Part shown: positions 1 to 17,116 of the stretch, piece by piece
Numbering within the stretch: the first letter of the stretch is position 1
How the letters are laid out: every line of letters begins with the position of its first letter
Virus record (IMG/VR): IMGVR_UViG_3300042939_000024
Coordinates: 1 to 24,990 of that record
DNA from: a virus
Reading direction: 5' to 3' (one strand)
Length of the DNA: 24,990 nucleotides
Notes under the pieces: model-generated
Seen by the model: the letters and a program-made list of their open reading frames with translations, nothing else
Databases searched by the model: none
Told to the model about the DNA's origin: nothing
Translations under genes and position numbers: made by a program

Positions 1-191
1 CTTCGGGATGGAGTTTTGCGAGCCGCTCGGCCTTTCGCGTTATCGCGTCCCCTCGCTGCATCTGCCGCCTCCTTGCGATGTAGAACTATGTTGCCGTCGT
101 CATCCGGCATCGGGTTGGCACCGTCCGTGTCTTCCTCGTAGTCAACGTCGTCGAGGCCAGTCCACCCGCGCTCATCCGTGCGCTTTGCCAC
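1..191 (-). CDS. Partial hypothetical protein, acidic then basic, cut by left window edge
   Basis: The start is a GTG at 191 preceded by GAGGAGG about 7 nt upstream. It overlaps the 3' end of the previous gene by 20 nt. The 63 visible codons have no stop. The protein begins MAKRTDERGWTGLDD, has a strongly acidic stretch (residues about 5-33, many Asp/Glu), then turns Lys/Arg/Ala-rich. It continues past base 1, so its full length and C-terminus are unknown. I recognise no family. Its place after the tail genes is compatible with another minor tail or late gene. Competing short frames over the same bases lack a comparable ribosome binding site. Confidence 0.6.
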   Translation of the reverse strand, partial: MAKRTDERGWTGLDDVDYEEDTDGANPMPDDDGNIVLHRKEAADAARGRDNAKGRAARKTPSR

Positions 192-582
192 GATGCAGCC
201 TCCTCGCGTTGCTGATCGCTCGTCTCACCAGCACCGTACCCGCCGCGTCAACAAACGGCAGCCGCCTACTGGTGGCCTCCTCGCGGAGCCAGCCGACGAT
301 GGTGGGCACGTTGGCGTCGCACCAGTCACAGCCGCGGATGTCCATCTCCACGGCACGCGCCAGGCATTTACAGCCGGCCTTCGGCGTGATGCCGATCTTG
401 GATAGGAGCTTTTTCAGTTCCGTGCCCGGTCCTTCATTTGGTGGCGGCGGGGCATGCTCGACTACTCGCAGCTGGAGCAGGCCGCTGCCGGGGCTTTCGC
501 CCAGCAGTTTGGCAATCGCCGCCGCGAGCGTGGCCGGGTCCACTCGCCCCGAGTACGGGATGACCATGCTGCGGGTATTCAT
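172..582 (-). CDS. Hypothetical small protein with CxC/CxxC cysteine motif
   Basis: I place the start at the ATG at 582, which forms an ATGA overlap with the stop of the upstream Cys-rich tail gene and has GGGG upstream. A GTG at 591 in the same frame is an alternative. The product is about 136 residues. The middle carries GPGTELKKLLSKIGI, then GCKCLARAVEMD and GCDWCD, giving four cysteines as CxC and CxxC that could bind a metal. It is followed by a VGWLREEA helix and a basic C-terminus. From memory, similar sequences occur in planctomycete genomes and phages, but no function is known to me. Position at the end of the tail operon suggests a minor tail or late protein; this is inference. Confidence 0.75.
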   Translation of the reverse strand: MNTRSMVIPYSGRVDPATLAAAIAKLLGESPGSGLLQLRVVEHAPPPPNEGPGTELKKLLSKIGITPKAGCKCLARAVEMDIRGCDWCDANVPTIVGWLREEATSRRLPFVDAAGTVLVRRAISNARRLHRGKAHG

Positions 583-1706
583 GAGCAGCACCCCGGCGGA
601 TCACAAGCACTGGTACACACAGACTCCAGGCAGTCTCGCGTGCCGTCGATCGCGTGCCGCACTTGCTTCCATTGGTCCCCGATGCACTGGCTACTGGCCG
701 TACCGCCAAGACAGTTGCTCTCGGTCAGGTCGTCGATGCAGTCCTGCTCGCTTGCGTACCCGTAGCCGTCGATAACCACCGGGTCCGAGTCCTCGTTGTC
801 AGGGGAGACAACCACGGAGACGAGCGTGCCACAAGGGCAGACGGCGAGTACCACGGTGAACGAGGTTACGTCCGGCGAAGCCGGCGAGTTCGGCGAACAC
901 TGGTTCGTCCGCGTGACCGTGATGGTCACAAGCTTGCAGTTCTGCGGAGGGCATAGTTGCAGCGCGTCGGTAGACGAGTTGCAAAGGTCGGTAAACGAGT
1001 CTTCTACTGACACGGTCTTGTCGTAGAACACCTTGTAGTCCGCGGCTGGATCGCAGTCTGTCTCCAGCTCAGCAGGGTCGTCGCAAGAGGCACAGTCGTC
1101 GGCCTCGACCCACCCCTCGGCCGGCAGGTCGTCCTGTGTGCCACGCTCTAGCAGGGCGTCTACGATCCAGTCGCCAGTGCCGGGGGTAGCGAGAACAAGT
1201 TTGCGGATGTCGGGTATAGCCCCCGACGAGCCGGAAAACTCCTGCACGTACCAGTAGCGAGTGGCGCCAGGCAAGCACCAATCCGGTGCCGGCGGCGCGC
1301 CGTCGGGGCATTGCTCCTCCAGCACTGCCGCCGTGGCCACCACGCCGTTGATGTACGGCACGCTCCAACCGAACCATGTGGAGCCATTAAAAAAGATGTC
1401 ATCCCGGCACTCGTTAGCCTCCCAAGACGCCTGGAAAAGATCGCGAATTTGCTGCTCAGTCCACCCTGGAAAGTTAATTAGAGCCTGCGCCACCTTTGCA
1501 TCCACGCACGCGGACTGCGACTCATATAGCCGGCTGATACAGCCCGGCAGTAGGTCAAGCAGGTCGTCATAGAGACTCAGGGAATACTGGCTAGGCGATA
1601 GCTCCCGGGCGTCAAATGCCCAGTCCCACGGAGCGCACGAACAGCAAGCGTCACACGTCGGGCAGGTGCACGGTGTGCCGCAGCAGGCGCTACAGGGCAT
1701 GAGCAT
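579..1706 (-). CDS. Cysteine-rich putative minor tail protein
   Basis: The ATG at 1706 overlaps the upstream stop as TGATG and has GGAG about 8 nt upstream. A GTG at 1709 is less likely. The product is about 375 residues, of which I count 31 cysteines. The N-terminus is the densest part, with nine cysteines in the first 25 residues (MLMPCSACCGTPCTCPTC and onward). Further CxxC, CPC and terminal GCC motifs lie along the chain. The central part has aromatic-rich, beta-looking stretches (STWFGWSVPYINGVVA, RYWYVQEFSGSSG). There is no signal peptide or membrane segment. It sits downstream of the tape measure, where siphophages encode tail-tip and minor tail proteins, so a disulfide- or metal-stabilised tip protein is possible. 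No family is recognised. Confidence 0.8.
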   Translation of the reverse strand: MLMPCSACCGTPCTCPTCDACCSCAPWDWAFDARELSPSQYSLSLYDDLLDLLPGCISRLYESQSACVDAKVAQALINFPGWTEQQIRDLFQASWEANECRDDIFFNGSTWFGWSVPYINGVVATAAVLEEQCPDGAPPAPDWCLPGATRYWYVQEFSGSSGAIPDIRKLVLATPGTGDWIVDALLERGTQDDLPAEGWVEADDCASCDDPAELETDCDPAADYKVFYDKTVSVEDSFTDLCNSSTDALQLCPPQNCKLVTITVTRTNQCSPNSPASPDVTSFTVVLAVCPCGTLVSVVVSPDNEDSDPVVIDGYGYASEQDCIDDLTESNCLGGTASSQCIGDQWKQVRHAIDGTRDCLESVCTSACDPPGCCS

Positions 1707-2053
1707 CACTCACACTCCGCGGCGATGGCGTACCACCCAAACCCGTTGTTGCTCATGGCGACGTAGGCCGAACTGGGAATGGTGGCGAAGATGTTGTGCG
1801 CGACCATCGTCCCGGCCGTCGCCGTGGGCCTCGAAGTGGCCGTGGAAGGCGGACCGACGTAGAGCGTGATGACCGCCGACGATGCCTTCGACCACTCCGC
1901 TGTACCCACCTTGCCAATCATGATGCGGACGCCTGCCGCCCCGCGATCGTTCACCGCGCCGCTCGTCTTCAGCGTAGGGCCGCTACGTTCGACCACCTTG
2001 ACGGCGTGGCCGATACGCTTAGCGTCGTCCTCGCTGAACCCGTAGACCGGCAT
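1706..2053 (-). CDS. Hypothetical tail-region protein
   Basis: The 115-residue product starts at the ATG at 2053, three bases after the upstream stop. It begins MPVYGFSEDDAKRIGHAV, has a charged N-terminal part, then a Thr/Ala/Ser-rich beta-like part. It ends with an AMSNNGFGWYAIAAECE segment. Similar N-termini (GFSEDDAKRI) are familiar to me from phage and planctomycete hypothetical proteins, but I cannot assign a function. Its stop overlaps the start of the cysteine-rich gene. Its position after the tape-measure gene points to a small tail-tip, fibre-associated or structural accessory protein; that is inference from order only. Confidence 0.78.
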   Translation of the reverse strand: MPVYGFSEDDAKRIGHAVKVVERSGPTLKTSGAVNDRGAAGVRIMIGKVGTAEWSKASSAVITLYVGPPSTATSRPTATAGTMVAHNIFATIPSSAYVAMSNNGFGWYAIAAECE

Positions 2054-2056
2054 CGG

Positions 2057-2452
2057 TCACCTCGACAGGACGAGGTACTGCAGCCGAGCGGCCGACGTGT
2101 ACTGCGTGCTCGTCACCGCTCGCAGGCCAAGGGTAATCGTCTCGGCCAGCGGCAGGACCGCCGCCATGCCACGCTGAAGCTCAAGCACTTCCTGGCTGTT
2201 CGTTCCGTCGAAGCGGCCGATGAACACGGCGTGCGTGCCGGCCGTCTGCGTGGCCAGGTTGCGGAACGCCGCGTAGCCTGGGGCCGACACGATGCCGAGC
2301 GAGAGCGTTTGCACCGAGGTGCCGATGGTCACCACGCCGGCCGCCGCCGCCTGCGTCGTCTGGTTGGCCTTCACCGATGCCGCGGCGAACCGGTCGGAGA
2401 AGTTGCCGTTGTCACACTGCAGCGTGACCGAAGCCTTGATTTCGTCAGCCAT
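2057..2452 (-). CDS. Hypothetical minor structural (tail) protein
   Basis: The 131-residue protein starts at the ATG at 2452, which overlaps the upstream TAA (TAATG type junction). The sequence is rich in Ala, Thr, Val and Gly with little charge. It looks all-beta, for example SVTLQCDNGNF, VVTIGTSVQTLSLG and AVFIGRFDGTNSQEVLELQ. It ends with ARLQYLVLSR. This composition fits a small virion protein such as a tail-tip, fibre-attachment or decoration domain. No membrane segment, signal peptide or catalytic motif is visible, and no family is recognised with confidence. Confidence 0.78.
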   Translation of the reverse strand: MADEIKASVTLQCDNGNFSDRFAAASVKANQTTQAAAAGVVTIGTSVQTLSLGIVSAPGYAAFRNLATQTAGTHAVFIGRFDGTNSQEVLELQRGMAAVLPLAETITLGLRAVTSTQYTSAARLQYLVLSR

Positions 2453-3384
2453 TAGATGCCCGCCTCCGTAAACAGGTTGCTGTGGACTTTCTCTTCATAC
2501 GGATACGCCTTGCGCGTGAATATGTAGTCCTTGGCATTGGGGCCGGTGATCAGCGTTGGCAGAACCGCCAGTCCGCTGCCGTCGAGCTGCACCGGCTTGC
2601 TAACTGGATTACCGGCAAGGTCGAGGATTGCTCGCCGCTCGCCGCCGACAACCTCATTGAAGCCAGCGTCGTGGAACTCAACGAAATGCCCCTTGGGGTC
2701 GTACAGCCAATCGACTGAGACAACCCATTGGTCCACCTTGTCGTCGAAGTCCGCGTTGTAGCCGACACACAGCATCGTCCGCCGCGATGCACCTAGGAAA
2801 GCGACCTCGTTGGTCGTGTTGACGTAGGATGTTAACGCGGCAATGTTTGGCCTGACGACCTTGGTGTTGGTGTACGTCAGCCGAAGAAGGCAGCGGTTTT
2901 CTGTCAGCCCGTCCACCGGGTCGCCCGCCGAGTTTGTTGCCGGCTTTGGGGCAGCGTTGTACTCGCCATTCTCGCCCTGGTCCGTGAGCGGGCATTCCTT
3001 CTGTTCGGTCGAGATACTAATCCGCTTCCACGTTTCGGTCTCTTGATCTTCAGGCGACGGCTGCTCTGACTCGTCGTCTTGAGCCTCGTAGGTCACCGCA
3101 ATCTTGATCGCACGGTCGGCGTCGTCGCCCTTGTAGTAGGACAGTTTTCGCGACTTGACCTTGAACATCACACCCGCAACCAGCCGGGTTTCGCCGACCT
3201 TCGGGATCGTCTGGTTGCCCAGGTTGAGCCACGTCGAAGAGTCGTCAGCCAGCGTGCCGAAGTCGGGCGTGCTGTCGTGCAACGCCAGAAGGTCCACGGA
3301 CCCGGCAAGCGTGATCCGGCCCTTGTCGCCCAGCGTTTCGCCGTACTCGAAGGACCGCAGTTCTCGAACGTCGATGATAGCCAT
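2452..3384 (-). CDS. Putative tail-tip/distal tail protein, function unassigned
   Basis: The 310-residue protein directly follows the tape-measure gene (TAATG overlap at 3382-3386), the slot where siphophages normally encode the distal tail protein or tail hub. It is soluble and predicted mixed alpha/beta: MAIIDVRELRSFEYGE at the start, a KVKSRKLSYYKGDDADRAIKIAV strand-rich region, an acidic linker near residues 100-120 (DDESEQPSPEDQETE), and a late VVSVDWLYDPKGHFVEFHD segment. I do not recognise a Dit, RBP or hub signature, so the assignment rests on gene order. Other genes further downstream may form the actual adsorption apparatus. Confidence 0.8.
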   Translation of the reverse strand: MAIIDVRELRSFEYGETLGDKGRITLAGSVDLLALHDSTPDFGTLADDSSTWLNLGNQTIPKVGETRLVAGVMFKVKSRKLSYYKGDDADRAIKIAVTYEAQDDESEQPSPEDQETETWKRISISTEQKECPLTDQGENGEYNAAPKPATNSAGDPVDGLTENRCLLRLTYTNTKVVRPNIAALTSYVNTTNEVAFLGASRRTMLCVGYNADFDDKVDQWVVSVDWLYDPKGHFVEFHDAGFNEVVGGERRAILDLAGNPVSKPVQLDGSGLAVLPTLITGPNAKDYIFTRKAYPYEEKVHSNLFTEAGI

Positions 3385-4931
3385 TAGCCGATCACCGCCA
3401 ATCCGGTCGGGTCGAGCCTATCGGCGATGTCCTCTAGTGCGTCAGCAGACCGCTCCGTGTTGTCGGCCGTCTTGCGGGCGTCGTCCTTCACGTCGAGCCT
3501 AGGGTCGGCCCCGCGCATGATGTTGTTGCGGAACGCTTCGCCCTCGGACGAGCCGACGACGATGGCACGGAGTTCCTGGCTCGAGGCGCGGATCGCAGCA
3601 CCCACAGCCTGAGCGGTAGGACCGGCACCCGGCTGGCCCGGCTTGCCGCCCTTGGCAGCGTTGGCGGCAGCATCGGCTTGAGCCTTAGCAAGAGCGGCGT
3701 CAAAGGCACCGAAAGGGTTGGTGATGTTGTTGATGCCGTTGGCAAAGCCTTCGGCCGCTTGCTCCCCGTACTCCTTGCCGAGCTTGTCCACGCCTCGCTG
3801 CATCTTGGCGGCACCCGCAGCGCCGGCATCGAGCGAACCGGCAAGGTCCGTGAACCCAGCAGCCTCGGCCAACTGAGCCAGCGACCTCGCTAGGCTTTGA
3901 ACGCCAGAAAGGATCACTGAGAACACAGCACTAAACGCTTGGCTCAGTTTGGCGTTGATGGCGAAGATCACCTGAAACACGCCGTACAGGATCGTAAATC
4001 GACCCACCACGCCACGCAGTACTCCGGTAAACACCGCGGCCGCACTAGATGCCAGACTCCAGCCCTTCGTGTTCTCCGAGAAAAACCCGACGATCAGATT
4101 GGACACGGCGGTGATCGCCGGCGCAATGCCGGCCGTGAACTGCAGAATGAACCCCTTGACCGGCAGGATCAGTCGGCCGAGCGCGTCGCCCATCCCTTCG
4201 ATGGCTGCCGTCTGCTCGCCGCTCATCTTCACGCCAAGGTTCGTGAGCAGCGTGTCCATCTCGCGGATGCCGTCGCCGCCTTGCCGCAGGAAGTTCAGCA
4301 TCCCCTGCCCGGACCGGCCGAAGATGTCGATCGCCGCTGCGGCCTGCATCTCAGGCGGCAGGGCCGCGATGCGGTCAGCGATGAGCGAGAACTGGGCCGC
4401 GGTGTCGAGACCCGCCATATCCTGCATCGTCAGGCCGAGACCCTGGAACGCCTTGACGGCAGCCGGCGTGCCAGACGCCAGTTCGCTCGTCATGCGAGCC
4501 GTGCGACGCAGTCCGCCGGTCAGTTGTTCCTGGCTCACACCGACTTCGCCGGCCGCGTGCTGGAGAACCTGCAGTTGCCCCGCTGCCACGCCCAGTTCCG
4601 TGGATAGGTTTTGCACGCCTTCGGCGTAGGCCATTGCCTGGCCGATGGCCACGAACGGGGCCGTGAGGGCAGCGATGACGCCCAGCGGAATCAGCAGGCT
4701 CTTCATCGCCCCGCTTAGGATCGCCACGCCAACCGCCGCCGTAGACGCTCCCCGGCCAAGCCCGAGAACCCCCATTGCAGCACTGGCAAAGCCGGTGCCC
4801 ATCCCGCCGGTCATCCGGCTCACGAGACCCTGGAAGCCGCTCAGTTGCTTTCCAGCGCTCGCCAGCCCGGCAGTCAGTCCGCCCGTGGACGCCGTGATCG
4901 AGACGTTGACGCGGCCGAAGTTCTTCGCCAT
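3384..4931 (-). CDS. Tail tape measure protein
   Basis: I choose the ATG at 4931, which overlaps the chaperone-fusion stop as TGATG and has GGAGG upstream; a GTG at 4934 is in frame. The product is about 515 residues. The N-terminus (NVSITASTGGLTAGLASAGKQ) is typical of tape-measure proteins. So are the long Ala/Gly-rich helical repeats, the hydrophobic segments near residues 75-112 (LLIPLGVIAALTAPFVAIG) and 255-330, and the FGRSGQGMLNFLRQGGDGI region. Such proteins set tail length and are ejected with the DNA. At about 1.5 Angstrom per residue this predicts a tail near 77 nm. Its position immediately after a frameshifted chaperone pair is the standard siphophage order and strongly supports the call. 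Confidence 0.93.
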   Translation of the reverse strand: MAKNFGRVNVSITASTGGLTAGLASAGKQLSGFQGLVSRMTGGMGTGFASAAMGVLGLGRGASTAAVGVAILSGAMKSLLIPLGVIAALTAPFVAIGQAMAYAEGVQNLSTELGVAAGQLQVLQHAAGEVGVSQEQLTGGLRRTARMTSELASGTPAAVKAFQGLGLTMQDMAGLDTAAQFSLIADRIAALPPEMQAAAAIDIFGRSGQGMLNFLRQGGDGIREMDTLLTNLGVKMSGEQTAAIEGMGDALGRLILPVKGFILQFTAGIAPAITAVSNLIVGFFSENTKGWSLASSAAAVFTGVLRGVVGRFTILYGVFQVIFAINAKLSQAFSAVFSVILSGVQSLARSLAQLAEAAGFTDLAGSLDAGAAGAAKMQRGVDKLGKEYGEQAAEGFANGINNITNPFGAFDAALAKAQADAAANAAKGGKPGQPGAGPTAQAVGAAIRASSQELRAIVVGSSEGEAFRNNIMRGADPRLDVKDDARKTADNTERSADALEDIADRLDPTGLAVIG

Positions 4932-5601
4932 CACCCGCCTCCGATCGCACGGAAGGCCGCCACGATCTGCTCAGGCGTCTGCGTCCGCTTCGGCACCGGC
5001 ATGAAGTCGTCAGGCCGGCGACGCGGCGAACCCTTGGAACGGTGGGCGGACGCGAACTGTGACATGGCCATCGCGTCCCTCAACCACTCGTCGCCCCACG
5101 GTTCCAATTGGTAGTAGCCCATCCAGGCGTACAACTGATCGACGCTCATCGAGTCCGCCAGGCCGCCAGGCTCCTCGACGTTCCAGATGCCCAGCTTCAA
5201 GGCCAGCCGGTAGAGGAACTGCAGGACCGGCTGGCGCTCTATTTTCCCGCCGCTTCCTCCACCGGATTCGCACCGAGCCCGTTCAACTTGAACACCGCAT
5301 CGACGATCCGCTGCACGGCGTCGGCGTCGAACTCGCCAATCCGCTCCTCGTCCGCCTCGGTGAACAACGCCTTGCCGTCGTCGTCCACGCACGACAAAGC
5401 CACGACCTTCGCGGACACGTTCTTCAGGTTGACCGACCCGCCGACCTTGCCGCCGGTGGCGATCTCCTCGAAACGGTTCCGCATCCGGCTGGTGAACTTG
5501 GTGACCCACACCTCGGCGTCCTCGCCAAGTTCGGGCACCGGCACCTTCACCTTCGGCAGCGGACGCTTCCGCTTGAAGAACTCATCACGACTCAGAGCCA
5601 T
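4931..5601 (-). CDS. Tail assembly chaperone, -1 frameshift fusion product (gpGT-like)
   Basis: Translation starts at the ATG at 5601 and reads the 120-residue upstream frame to a GGGAAAA heptamer (5248 to 5242). A -1 slip there enters the second frame and continues with IERQPVLQFLYRLALKLG to the stop at 4931-4933. This adds about 103 residues, for a fusion of about 223. In lambda-type phages such fusions bind the tape-measure protein while the unfused form coats it, and both are needed for tail assembly. The second frame has no convincing independent start between 5242 and the gene end. Its conserved-looking MSVDQLYAWMGYYQLEPWGDEW motif is typical of T-domain extensions. It is followed directly by the tape-measure gene. 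Confidence 0.85.
5203..5248 (-). promoter_or_regulatory. -1 programmed ribosomal frameshift signal: GGGAAAA plus hairpin
   Basis: On the minus strand the order is G GGA AAA TAG in the zero frame. The heptamer GGGAAAA occupies 5248-5242 and fits the X XXY YYZ rule exactly. A 7-nt spacer (TAGAGCG, 5241-5235) is followed by a perfect 9-bp inverted repeat, CCAGCCGGT at 5234-5226 and ACCGGCTGG at 5211-5203, with a 14-nt loop. Spacer length and hairpin position match stimulatory elements in known -1 frameshift cassettes. The -1 frame stays open to 4931 and encodes a plausible T-domain. Confidence 0.88.
5239..5601 (-). CDS. Tail assembly chaperone, unshifted product (gpG-like)
   Basis: The 120-residue protein starts MALSRDEFFKRKRPLPKVKV at 5601 with an upstream GGAGG (in gggaggcgcgc). 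It lies between the tail-tube gene and the tape-measure gene. It contains VWVTKFTSRMRNRFEEI and an acidic DADAVQRIVDAVFKLNGLG segment resembling known tail-chaperone G domains. The frame ends with TAG at 5241-5239 immediately after the slippery heptamer, so most ribosomes should terminate here and a minority make the fusion. In related phages this shorter form is made in large excess. Confidence 0.9.
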   Translation of the reverse strand: MALSRDEFFKRKRPLPKVKVPVPELGEDAEVWVTKFTSRMRNRFEEIATGGKVGGSVNLKNVSAKVVALSCVDDDGKALFTEADEERIGEFDADAVQRIVDAVFKLNGLGANPVEEAAGK

Positions 5602-5625: not shown

Positions 5626-6024
5626 TCAACCAAGGGCACCCGAGAGCTTGATCGTCACGGAGCCCGACTGCATGTCTTCCATCTGGGCACCAGCCTCGTA
5701 GCCGGTCATGTAGCCGAACGCCGACCACAGCGTCACGGCCGTGCCACCGTTGGCCCAATACACGCTCACCACCTGATTGGTGGCGACGTTCGCCAGGTCG
5801 GCGACGGGCTTGACGGCAGGGTCGTGCAGCACCTCGACCGAGACTTCGCCGGGGTCGTAGATGCTCGAGGCCACGAACTCCTTGACCGTGGACTGCATGT
5901 GCGTCGCATCGGCCACGGCCCTCGCAATGCCGCTGTGATTCACGCCGGTGATCTTGTAGCCGGTCGCGGTGTGCAGCGCGGTGCCGAACGAAACGTAGGT
6001 TCCCTGCCCGATGTCAGCAGCCAT
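5626..6024 (-). CDS. Major tail tube protein (putative)
   Basis: The ATG at 6024 is preceded by GGAG and follows the tail-terminator stop by two bases; an open frame upstream to 6447 is a shadow of that gene. The product is about 132 residues and reads MAADIGQGTYVSFGTALH, with SSIYDPGEVSVEVLHDPA in the middle. The phrase around DPGEVSVEVLHDP matches the usual look of tail-tube subunits of lambda/HK97-type siphophages. It ends with beta-rich MEDMQSGSVTIKLSGALG. Gene order (terminator, tube, chaperone, tape measure) is canonical. It is somewhat short for a tail-tube protein, so there is no added Ig-like domain. Confidence 0.82.
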   Translation of the reverse strand: MAADIGQGTYVSFGTALHTATGYKITGVNHSGIARAVADATHMQSTVKEFVASSIYDPGEVSVEVLHDPAVKPVADLANVATNQVVSVYWANGGTAVTLWSAFGYMTGYEAGAQMEDMQSGSVTIKLSGALG

Positions 6025-15492: not shown

Positions 15493-16413
15493 CTAAAACA
15501 GCCTAGTTTGGCCTATCCGCCTTGCGTGTTTCCTGACGTTACACGACAAGCACGCACACTGGCAGTTCTGTTCGACGTGATCGCCGCCCTTAACCATAGG
15601 GATGATGTGGTCAAGACTTGCTGTCCTCGGATGCAGCCTTCTTGTCACCTTGTGCCGCTTGGCCTTCCTCAGCACGGCGCGCCCGCACAGCTGACACCGC
15701 CACCCGTCACGCTCAAACACCGCGCGGCGCGACACGTTGGTATATCGCACCCCGTACAGCATGGCTCGGGACTTGAAGTCTCCACGGTGCAGGTTGCACT
15801 GGTCGCAGGACGAACGCCCCCTCCCGTTGCGATTGTCCGCCTGGATGTCGCAGCGACAGTGCTTGCATGACCTGCCAGCAGACACTGGGCGTAGGCGGAC
15901 GCCAGTGCGACGCTGGTAGGCGTCCCTCGTCCTTTGCCTCCCGTGCTCCAGCCCGCACGCCTTACTGCACGTAGCCGTGCTTCTTGCTCTTCTGCCTGAC
16001 ACGCACGGCGTACCACATACACGGCACTCAGGGAGATCATCGAGGCACGCCCCGAGAAGCATGCCGAACATGCCAGCGATGATACTGGTGGCCTCGCCCA
16101 TCTTTTCGCATTGACGGCAGCGATAGGGAGCCATGCCGTCATCAACCCACAGAACTACTCCGCACGCCCTGCACCGGTGGCCATTATCCCGCAGCACTTC
16201 GTATTGCGGCAGGCCGTGCGTAAGCGCCTCTTGTGCCGCTTTTAGGCGTTTCCTGCGAGCCTTGTCTCGCCTTCTCGTCTCGGCATTCTCGTGAGCTCGC
16301 TGGCAGGTCGGGCAACGCGTCCTGCGACGGTTGCGAGAAGCAGGAATATCCGTGCCGCAGGAAACGCACGGCACATGATGACAGTGAATGCTCATGCACA
16401 CATGCTGTCGCAT
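15493..16413 (-). CDS. HNH endonuclease with four extra zinc clusters
   Basis: The 306-residue protein starts with ATG at 16413 (GAAGG 8-9 nt upstream), just after the previous HNH gene. Its C-terminal part is an HNH nuclease: RRAVFERDGWRCQLCG (C240, C243), LDHIIPMVKGGDHVEQN (D268, H269) and CLSC (C288, C291). In front lie four separate two-plus-two cysteine sets: C16/C19 with C34/C37, C81/C84 with C99/C102, C130/C133 with C149/C153, and C183/C186 with C203/C206. These look like zinc fingers for DNA recognition. Such enzymes may be homing endonucleases or packaging-linked nucleases. Complete catalytic residues suggest an active enzyme. Confidence 0.9.
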   Translation of the reverse strand: MRQHVCMSIHCHHVPCVSCGTDIPASRNRRRTRCPTCQRAHENAETRRRDKARRKRLKAAQEALTHGLPQYEVLRDNGHRCRACGVVLWVDDGMAPYRCRQCEKMGEATSIIAGMFGMLLGACLDDLPECRVCGTPCVSGRRARSTATCSKACGLEHGRQRTRDAYQRRTGVRLRPVSAGRSCKHCRCDIQADNRNGRGRSSCDQCNLHRGDFKSRAMLYGVRYTNVSRRAVFERDGWRCQLCGRAVLRKAKRHKVTRRLHPRTASLDHIIPMVKGGDHVEQNCQCACLSCNVRKHARRIGQTRLF

Positions 16414-16416
16414 CCG

Positions 16417-16758
16417 TCAAGCCTTCTTGCGTCTCGCTACATGGCCGAACGCGCCGCCCTGCTCTTCCATCACGGTCTTGCGACTGTGGCAGCTGCGGCA
16501 GAGCGTCCGCAGGTTGCCCATTAAGTCAGACCCGCCCGCCACCTTTGGCACGACATGGTCAACGTGGGCCTCTCGCCCCGTAACGATCCGGCCGCATTGC
16601 TGGCACTGCCAGTTGTCTAGGAGCAGCCTTTCCGCCCGAGCGAGCCTCCACGCTCGCCTTCCGTATCCAGCCTGCGACTGATTCCTGACTGTGCCGCTGT
16701 TCGCCTTGGGCTTCCTGTTCACCCACGGCGGCTTGAACGTCGGTATTCGGTCTGGCAC
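16417..16758 (-). CDS. HNH endonuclease (packaging-associated type)
   Basis: The start is GTG at 16758, immediately after the previous stop; an open frame to 16866 is shadow. The 113-residue product has the compact HNH domain: WQCQQCG (C52, C55), AHVDHVVPKVAGGSDLMGNL (D67, H68, N82) and CRSCH (C87, C90, H91). Small HNH proteins encoded beside the terminase genes in HK97-like phages (HK97 gp74) stimulate cohesive-end cutting during packaging; this gene fits that size and neighbourhood. A basic N-terminus (FKPPWVNRKPKANS) precedes the domain. It could also be a free-standing homing enzyme. Confidence 0.9.
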   Translation of the reverse strand: MPDRIPTFKPPWVNRKPKANSGTVRNQSQAGYGRRAWRLARAERLLLDNWQCQQCGRIVTGREAHVDHVVPKVAGGSDLMGNLRTLCRSCHSRKTVMEEQGGAFGHVARRKKA

Positions 16759-16759
16759 G

Positions 16760-17116
16760 TCAGCCCTTGAAGACGGCGGTCCCGATGGTGCCCGTGCTGT
16801 TCGTGGTGGCCGACAGCAGCTTGATGTACTGCGTGGCGAACACCTCGTCGGGCAGGGCATAGGCACGGCCGTCGGTAGTGGACGCTGAGAGGGTCACCTT
16901 CACCACGGCTCCGTCCTTGTCGTACAGCTGGAAGAACGGGCCGCTAGTGCTATCGCTGGCCCAGATGTTGATCTGGGTGGACGCGGTCACCATAGTGCCG
17001 ACCTCGATGTGCCCGCCGGCCATGTCGAGCATGGGCAGCGTGTTGGCGACCGAGGTGGCGGTCGAGAGCGTGAACGCGAACGTCTTCGACTTGCGGCGGA
17101 TGCGGACTTCCGACAT
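16760..17116 (-). CDS. Hypothetical beta-rich protein
   Basis: The 118-residue protein starts with ATG at 17116 after AAGGAACC. It opens basic (MSEVRIRRKSKTFAFTLS), then is Thr/Ser/Ala-rich with alternating hydrophobics: GGHIEVGTMVTASTQINIWA, GAVVKVTLSAST and FATQYIKLLSATTNSTGTIG. It resembles a small virion surface or fibre-associated beta-sandwich. No catalytic motif, signal or membrane helix is seen. The neighbours are a fibre-like gene upstream and HNH genes downstream. Family unknown. Confidence 0.75.
   Translation of the reverse strand: MSEVRIRRKSKTFAFTLSTATSVANTLPMLDMAGGHIEVGTMVTASTQINIWASDSTSGPFFQLYDKDGAVVKVTLSASTTDGRAYALPDEVFATQYIKLLSATTNSTGTIGTAVFKG

Follow-up and report, generated by a model that had tools for sequence, protein, structure and literature searches.

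An uncultured tailed phage very probably makes two siphophage tail-assembly chaperones from a −1 programmed ribosomal frameshift cassette that sits in an HK97-like gene order. The sequence elements of the cassette, its reading frames, the families of its proteins, its conservation and the selection acting in its −1 frame are established. The cassette belongs to the lambda/HK97 family of G/GT frameshifts. An earlier reading of the sequence (here called the original prediction) had placed it there, and that placement is borne out by the families of both halves, the gene order, the conservation of the heptamer, the purifying selection that T shows solely in the −1 frame and the lack of a conserved start for T. 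A −1 slip that yields G and GT is a textbook arrangement in siphophages, and the principle has been known since lambda. The phage group is new, the arrangement is real but ordinary, and the sole less ordinary element is a conserved internal Shine-Dalgarno (SD) sequence.

The window (24,990 bases, 64% GC) is the entire IMG/VR record. Its genes run in the order terminase, portal, protease, capsid, connectors, tail terminator, probable major tail protein, G/T and tape measure; the cassette and its two neighbors lie on the minus strand. G/T is located between the probable gene for the major tail protein, immediately upstream of G (5626..6024, with the start ATG at 6024 assigned by inspection), which matched the major tail protein family phrog_1407 weakly (E = 7e-4), and the tail tape measure gene (3384..4931), which matched phrog_8462 (E = 8e-26) and phrog_2854 (E = 3e-20) strongly. 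No PHROG family match was found for the genes 3′ of the tape measure gene, in the tail-tip region (window positions 1-3384; e.g., 2452-3384, 2057-2452, 1706-2053 and 579-1709), and an Rfam search of the window gave no match. Two adjacent HNH endonuclease-like genes (16417-16866 and 15493-16413, minus strand) adjoin the small terminase gene.

The open reading frame (ORF) from 5601 to 5239 ends in GTG GAG GAA GCG GCG GGA AAA TAG. Within this sequence, the slippery heptamer GGGAAAA (5242..5248, read from 5248 to 5242) stands in the X_XXY_YYZ register as G_GGA_AAA, and the zero-frame stop codon of gene G, TAG (5239..5241), follows directly 3′ of it; both coordinates and register are exactly as originally predicted. 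Read one base back at the slip, the sequence becomes ...GGG AAA ATA GAG CGC..., and from the ATA at 5242 the −1 frame contains 103 open codons up to a TGA at 4933-4931. This TGA overlaps the tape measure ATG (4931-4929) as TGATG, so the −1 frame, from 5242 to 4931, does reach the tape measure start as had been proposed. By frame count, the predicted GT fusion has 120 + 103 = 223 amino acids, in agreement with the earlier figure of about 223 residues, and its junction reads ...EEAAGK-IER.... Heptamers of the X_XXY_YYZ type occur 17 times on both strands of the window, and hence the heptamer alone is weak evidence.

The zero-frame product of gene G (5239..5601; ATG start, 120 amino acids) matched the family phrog_344 (E = 1e-21). 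Its Pfam match, to Phage_TAC_13 (E = 0.0015), was below the cut-off of that family. The best PDB match of an AlphaFold model of G (pLDDT 81) was the HK97 tail assembly chaperone 2OB9 (E = 1.2e-4; TM 0.61/0.69), and other structural matches included viral models named tail assembly chaperone, one of them "Pre-tape measure frameshift protein G." Both its family and its predicted HK97-chaperone fold identify G as a tail assembly chaperone. A PDB sequence search with G and T found no significant match, tblastn found no relatives of G among annotated phages at an E value of 1e-5, and a scan of genome contigs for G gave no match; no host was inferred.

We searched IMG/VR proteins with G and with T and retained the best 80 of about 230 matches per search, so the most distant members are only partly covered; the retrievals overlap. 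The heptamer plus stop, GGGAAAATAGA, was kept in 375 of 375 protein-retrieved loci representing 72 distinct sequences (best 80 of about 230 matches per search). This count comprises loci with the region in view and leaves out those from the DNA motif scan described below. It answers the call in the original prediction for a check of heptamer conservation, and no homologue combined an intact heptamer with a closed −1 frame. Such complete retention of heptamer and stop is the strongest argument against a cassette arising by chance. The cassette is also present in two additional loci whose T differs slightly, and the lowest DNA identity to the window, measured across G and T together, is 63%. A scan of viral contigs for the DNA motif GGAGG-N6-10-GGGAAAATAGA returned, among the matches listed, true homologues and many chance matches; hence, this motif alone is not diagnostic. 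The tests of selection, codon use, hairpins and T starts were made on 16 representatives that are <92% identical to one another and that include some loci from the DNA motif scan (L296 and probably L343).

A local fold of the sequence downstream of the heptamer gave a stem with the 5′ arm GCCAGCCGGT (5226..5235) beginning 6 nt after the heptamer and the 3′ arm ACCGGCTGGC (5202..5211). The perfect stem and 14-nt loop of the original prediction are present, with the stem corrected from 9 bp to 10 bp (5235-5226 with 5211-5202) and the spacer consequently from 7 nt to 6 nt. The local fold has a free energy of −21.6 kcal/mol (z = −2.1 versus dinucleotide shuffles), and perfect stems of at least 9 bp within 5 to 9 nt of a given position are rare, occurring at 11 of the 24,910 positions on the minus strand. 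With a longer stretch folded, a different structure is preferred, which often happens with single-sequence predictions. All 16 representatives have a hairpin with nearly the same starting position. Each of these hairpins is at least somewhat more stable than the average of its synonymous recodings (z from −0.3 to −3.7), and 6 of the 16 are individually at or below 5%. Counting of stem pairs scored 85% of cells as paired, and RNAalifold retained only a 6-bp core. For the stem conservation that had been suggested as a check, recurrence was found and covariation was not: across the 16 representatives, 0 pairs showed compensatory changes on both sides, and the counts did not exceed those of shuffles, so the stem draws its support from its recurrence and the synonymous-recoding test. 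We regard the downstream stem as probable, not proven. The loop sequence UUCCUCU (5218-5212) can pair with GGAGGAA (5260-5254) upstream of the heptamer, a pairing predicted by the longer fold. The TTC in the loop is invariant among relatives, which could reflect codon preference or an alternative structure.

The heptamer, stop and stem had been listed in the original prediction; an internal SD-like GGAGGA upstream of them (5255..5260, with the GGAGG core at 5260-5256) had been overlooked. The core is separated by 7 nt from the heptamer and by 11 nt from its A-site codon. In the review PMC5009743, the distance from SD to shift site for −1 stimulation is given as 9 to 14 nt, by a counting convention that may differ from ours; judged from sequence and synonymous constraint, the element lies at a putatively stimulatory distance. 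GTGGAGG was kept upstream in 71 of the 72 distinct homologues (best 80 of about 230 matches per search), and the exception, L355, keeps GGAG. At the end of G, a single codon was used in 16 of 16 representatives for each of GTG, GAG, GCG, GGA and AAA. The GCG is invariant because its last G is the first base of the heptamer, and GTG GAG G is invariant because of the SD-like GGAGG. The third base of the GAR codon varies between A and G in the representatives, both SD compatible, and the GCN codon between the SD-like element and the heptamer uses all four codons. Among the codons of G that encode invariant residues, single-codon use was found for 5 of the last 7 versus 9 of 46 overall (hypergeometric P = 0.0016, with related sequences that are not independent). 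Several genes in the window carry GGAGG-type ribosome-binding sites, and hence the host probably has a matching anti-SD sequence.

Whether the frameshifting depends on these flanking elements is a separate question. It is possible, though rather unlikely, that the frameshifting is real, that the heptamer and adjacent stop suffice for it, and that neither the stem nor the SD-like element contributes. The stem lacks compensatory covariation, V-E-E is invariant as protein, and codon preference could account in part for GTG and GAG. However, the stem is found in every representative and outperforms synonymous recodings on average, GTG GAG is invariant beside a free GCN, and the use of GGAGG-type ribosome-binding sites by window genes suggests that the host reads such sequences. 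In E. coli, G_GG.A_AA.A is called inefficient in the introduction of PMC4066793, whereas elsewhere in that paper the same motif is grouped with more efficient ones used by IS elements. If it is inefficient, substantial slippage would require stimulators or a host whose tRNA set differs. In either case, a useful level of slippage probably needs stimulators, in agreement with the conserved SD-like element and stem. That the tail-chaperone slip is stimulated here by an internal SD as well as by the stem, as a dnaX-like three-part signal under selection, has in our judgment about an even chance of being correct. In the portions covered of a mainly open-access literature, we found no description of a tail-chaperone slip with both an internal SD and a stem. 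The 72 distinct sequences provide a clean comparative set for separating the heptamer, the SD-like element and the stem.

The T domain in the −1 frame (4931..5242; 103 amino acids, from ATA, encoding Ile, to TGA) matched Pfam Phage_tail_T (PF06223; E = 1.8e-10), as expected from the T-like domain originally predicted, and the T extension also matched PHROG 337 (2.4e-8). An AlphaFold model of T alone was poor (pLDDT 53) and was left unused. Across the 16 representatives, mean pN/pS was 0.37 for G in frame 0 and 0.28 for T in frame −1, the latter indicating purifying selection; the G region gave 1.68 when read in frame −1. These comparisons also bear on whether T is an independent gene with a start of its own, which could be an upstream −1-frame GTG (e.g., at 5509), an internal TTG, or the AUA driven by GGAGG. 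No stop interrupts the −1 frame of the window between 5509 and the slip, GTG codons occur in it, and an SD-like GGAGG lies upstream of T. However, the window is the one representative with this frame open; in the other 15 of 16, the −1 frame 5′ of the slip is broken by stops, and the stretch has no protein-level constraint. No start codon for T was conserved across the 16 representatives. In L100, the −1 frame closes 8 codons before the slip and the first start comes only at T codon 15, and in L343 there is no start within T codons 1 to 20. The AUA is a poor start and is 13 nt from GGAGG, and initiation there would leave the synonymous invariance of GCG GGA AAA unexplained. Given the stops upstream of the slip and the lack of a conserved T start, translation of T independently of G is very unlikely on the sequence evidence. 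The same stops and pN/pS value agree with the earlier view that the N-terminal half of the ORF from 5509 is spurious. For an abundant, unannotated metagenomic phage lineage, the annotation is thus corrected to one G/GT pair in place of two wrong ORFs.

A change of frame in the mRNA by RNA polymerase slippage, and not by the ribosome, is similarly hard to credit. The site does contain the homopolymer AAAA; however, a run of 4 A is short for polymerase slippage, and neither the conserved tandem-slip register of GGG plus AAAA nor the conserved SD-like element would be needed for it. A sequencing indel or chance overlap that makes two unfused genes mimic a frameshift, conceivable for a single contig, can be practically dismissed, since the same one-base change and the same heptamer recur in the 375 loci, which come from many metagenomes and represent the 72 distinct sequences (best 80 of about 230 matches per search).

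We infer the slip itself, its efficiency, its stimulation by the SD-like element and the stem, and the functions of G and GT. Most ribosomes would stop at the TAG and release the 120-amino-acid G. A minority would slip back one base on G_GGA_AAA, with the P- and A-site tRNAs moving in tandem from GGA to GGG and from AAA to AAA, respectively, such that A-site pairing would stay cognate. Two elements would probably aid the slip: the stem, which begins 6 nt downstream, and the upstream GGAGG, which would pair with the 3′ end of 16S rRNA. The slipped ribosomes would bypass the TAG and add the 103-amino-acid T domain, giving the 223-amino-acid GT. In lambda, according to PMC5009743, G attaches to the tape measure, and the major tail protein is brought in by the T part; by analogy, G would coat the tape measure here and GT would recruit the major tail protein.

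The cassette shares with lambda G/GT (Xu, Hendrix and Duda 2004, as cited in PMC5009743) a −1 slip near the 3′ end of G and the production of T only as a fusion. It also shares the location before the tape measure and the membership of T in Pfam Phage_tail_T, the family of lambda T. In contrast to lambda, G here has a predicted HK97-chaperone fold, and the slip and stimulators differ in sequence. The likeness to the HK97 group lies in the predicted fold of G, for which 2OB9 was the top PDB match. In Enterobacteria phage mEp390, a member of that group, a GGGAAA-type heptamer (GGGAAAG, in frame) is likewise found at the 3′ end of G in an ...EEAGK context, and T has a weak similarity to that of the window over 76 residues (E = 0.4). 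The window differs from the HK97 group and mEp390 in a heptamer that ends in A and not G, a stop immediately after it and a conserved SD-like GGAGG, and protein identity is very low. E. coli dnaX, an unrelated gene, is alike in layout only, with an upstream internal SD, a heptamer and a downstream stem (11 bp according to PMC5009743, versus 10 bp in the window); its shifted product is the shorter one, whereas here it is the longer. Gene position and the kind of joined coding sequence (CDS) are shared with the annotated chaperone frameshifts of the SEA-PHAGES type (PRFect; PMC10885494), a set with 2,397 such annotated chaperone genes. The window lineage differs in having no G relative in the annotated phage collection at an E value of 1e-5.

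Related layouts were seen outside the close homologues. Distant relatives L069 and L070 share the layout, with AAAAAAA as the slip sequence, a TGA, and an inverted repeat close by. Annotated phages have, at the same place, GGGAAAG (mEp390) or A-rich heptamers (the others), and one of these annotated relatives, Serratia phage Rovert, has a joined two-piece chaperone CDS. In Rhodococcus phage Madraxi (L345, 1444-2138), the annotation has a separate CDS for each of the two tail assembly chaperone genes. No X_XXY_YYZ heptamer (YYY being A or T) was found near the end of the first of these genes, and Madraxi has either another type of slip or no frameshift. An apparently unrelated phage gene (L302, ~3200-3290, plus strand) also has AAGGAGGAGCTGCCGGGAAAATAGA and a 78-codon −1 extension, and is possibly a second chaperone type with the three-part layout.
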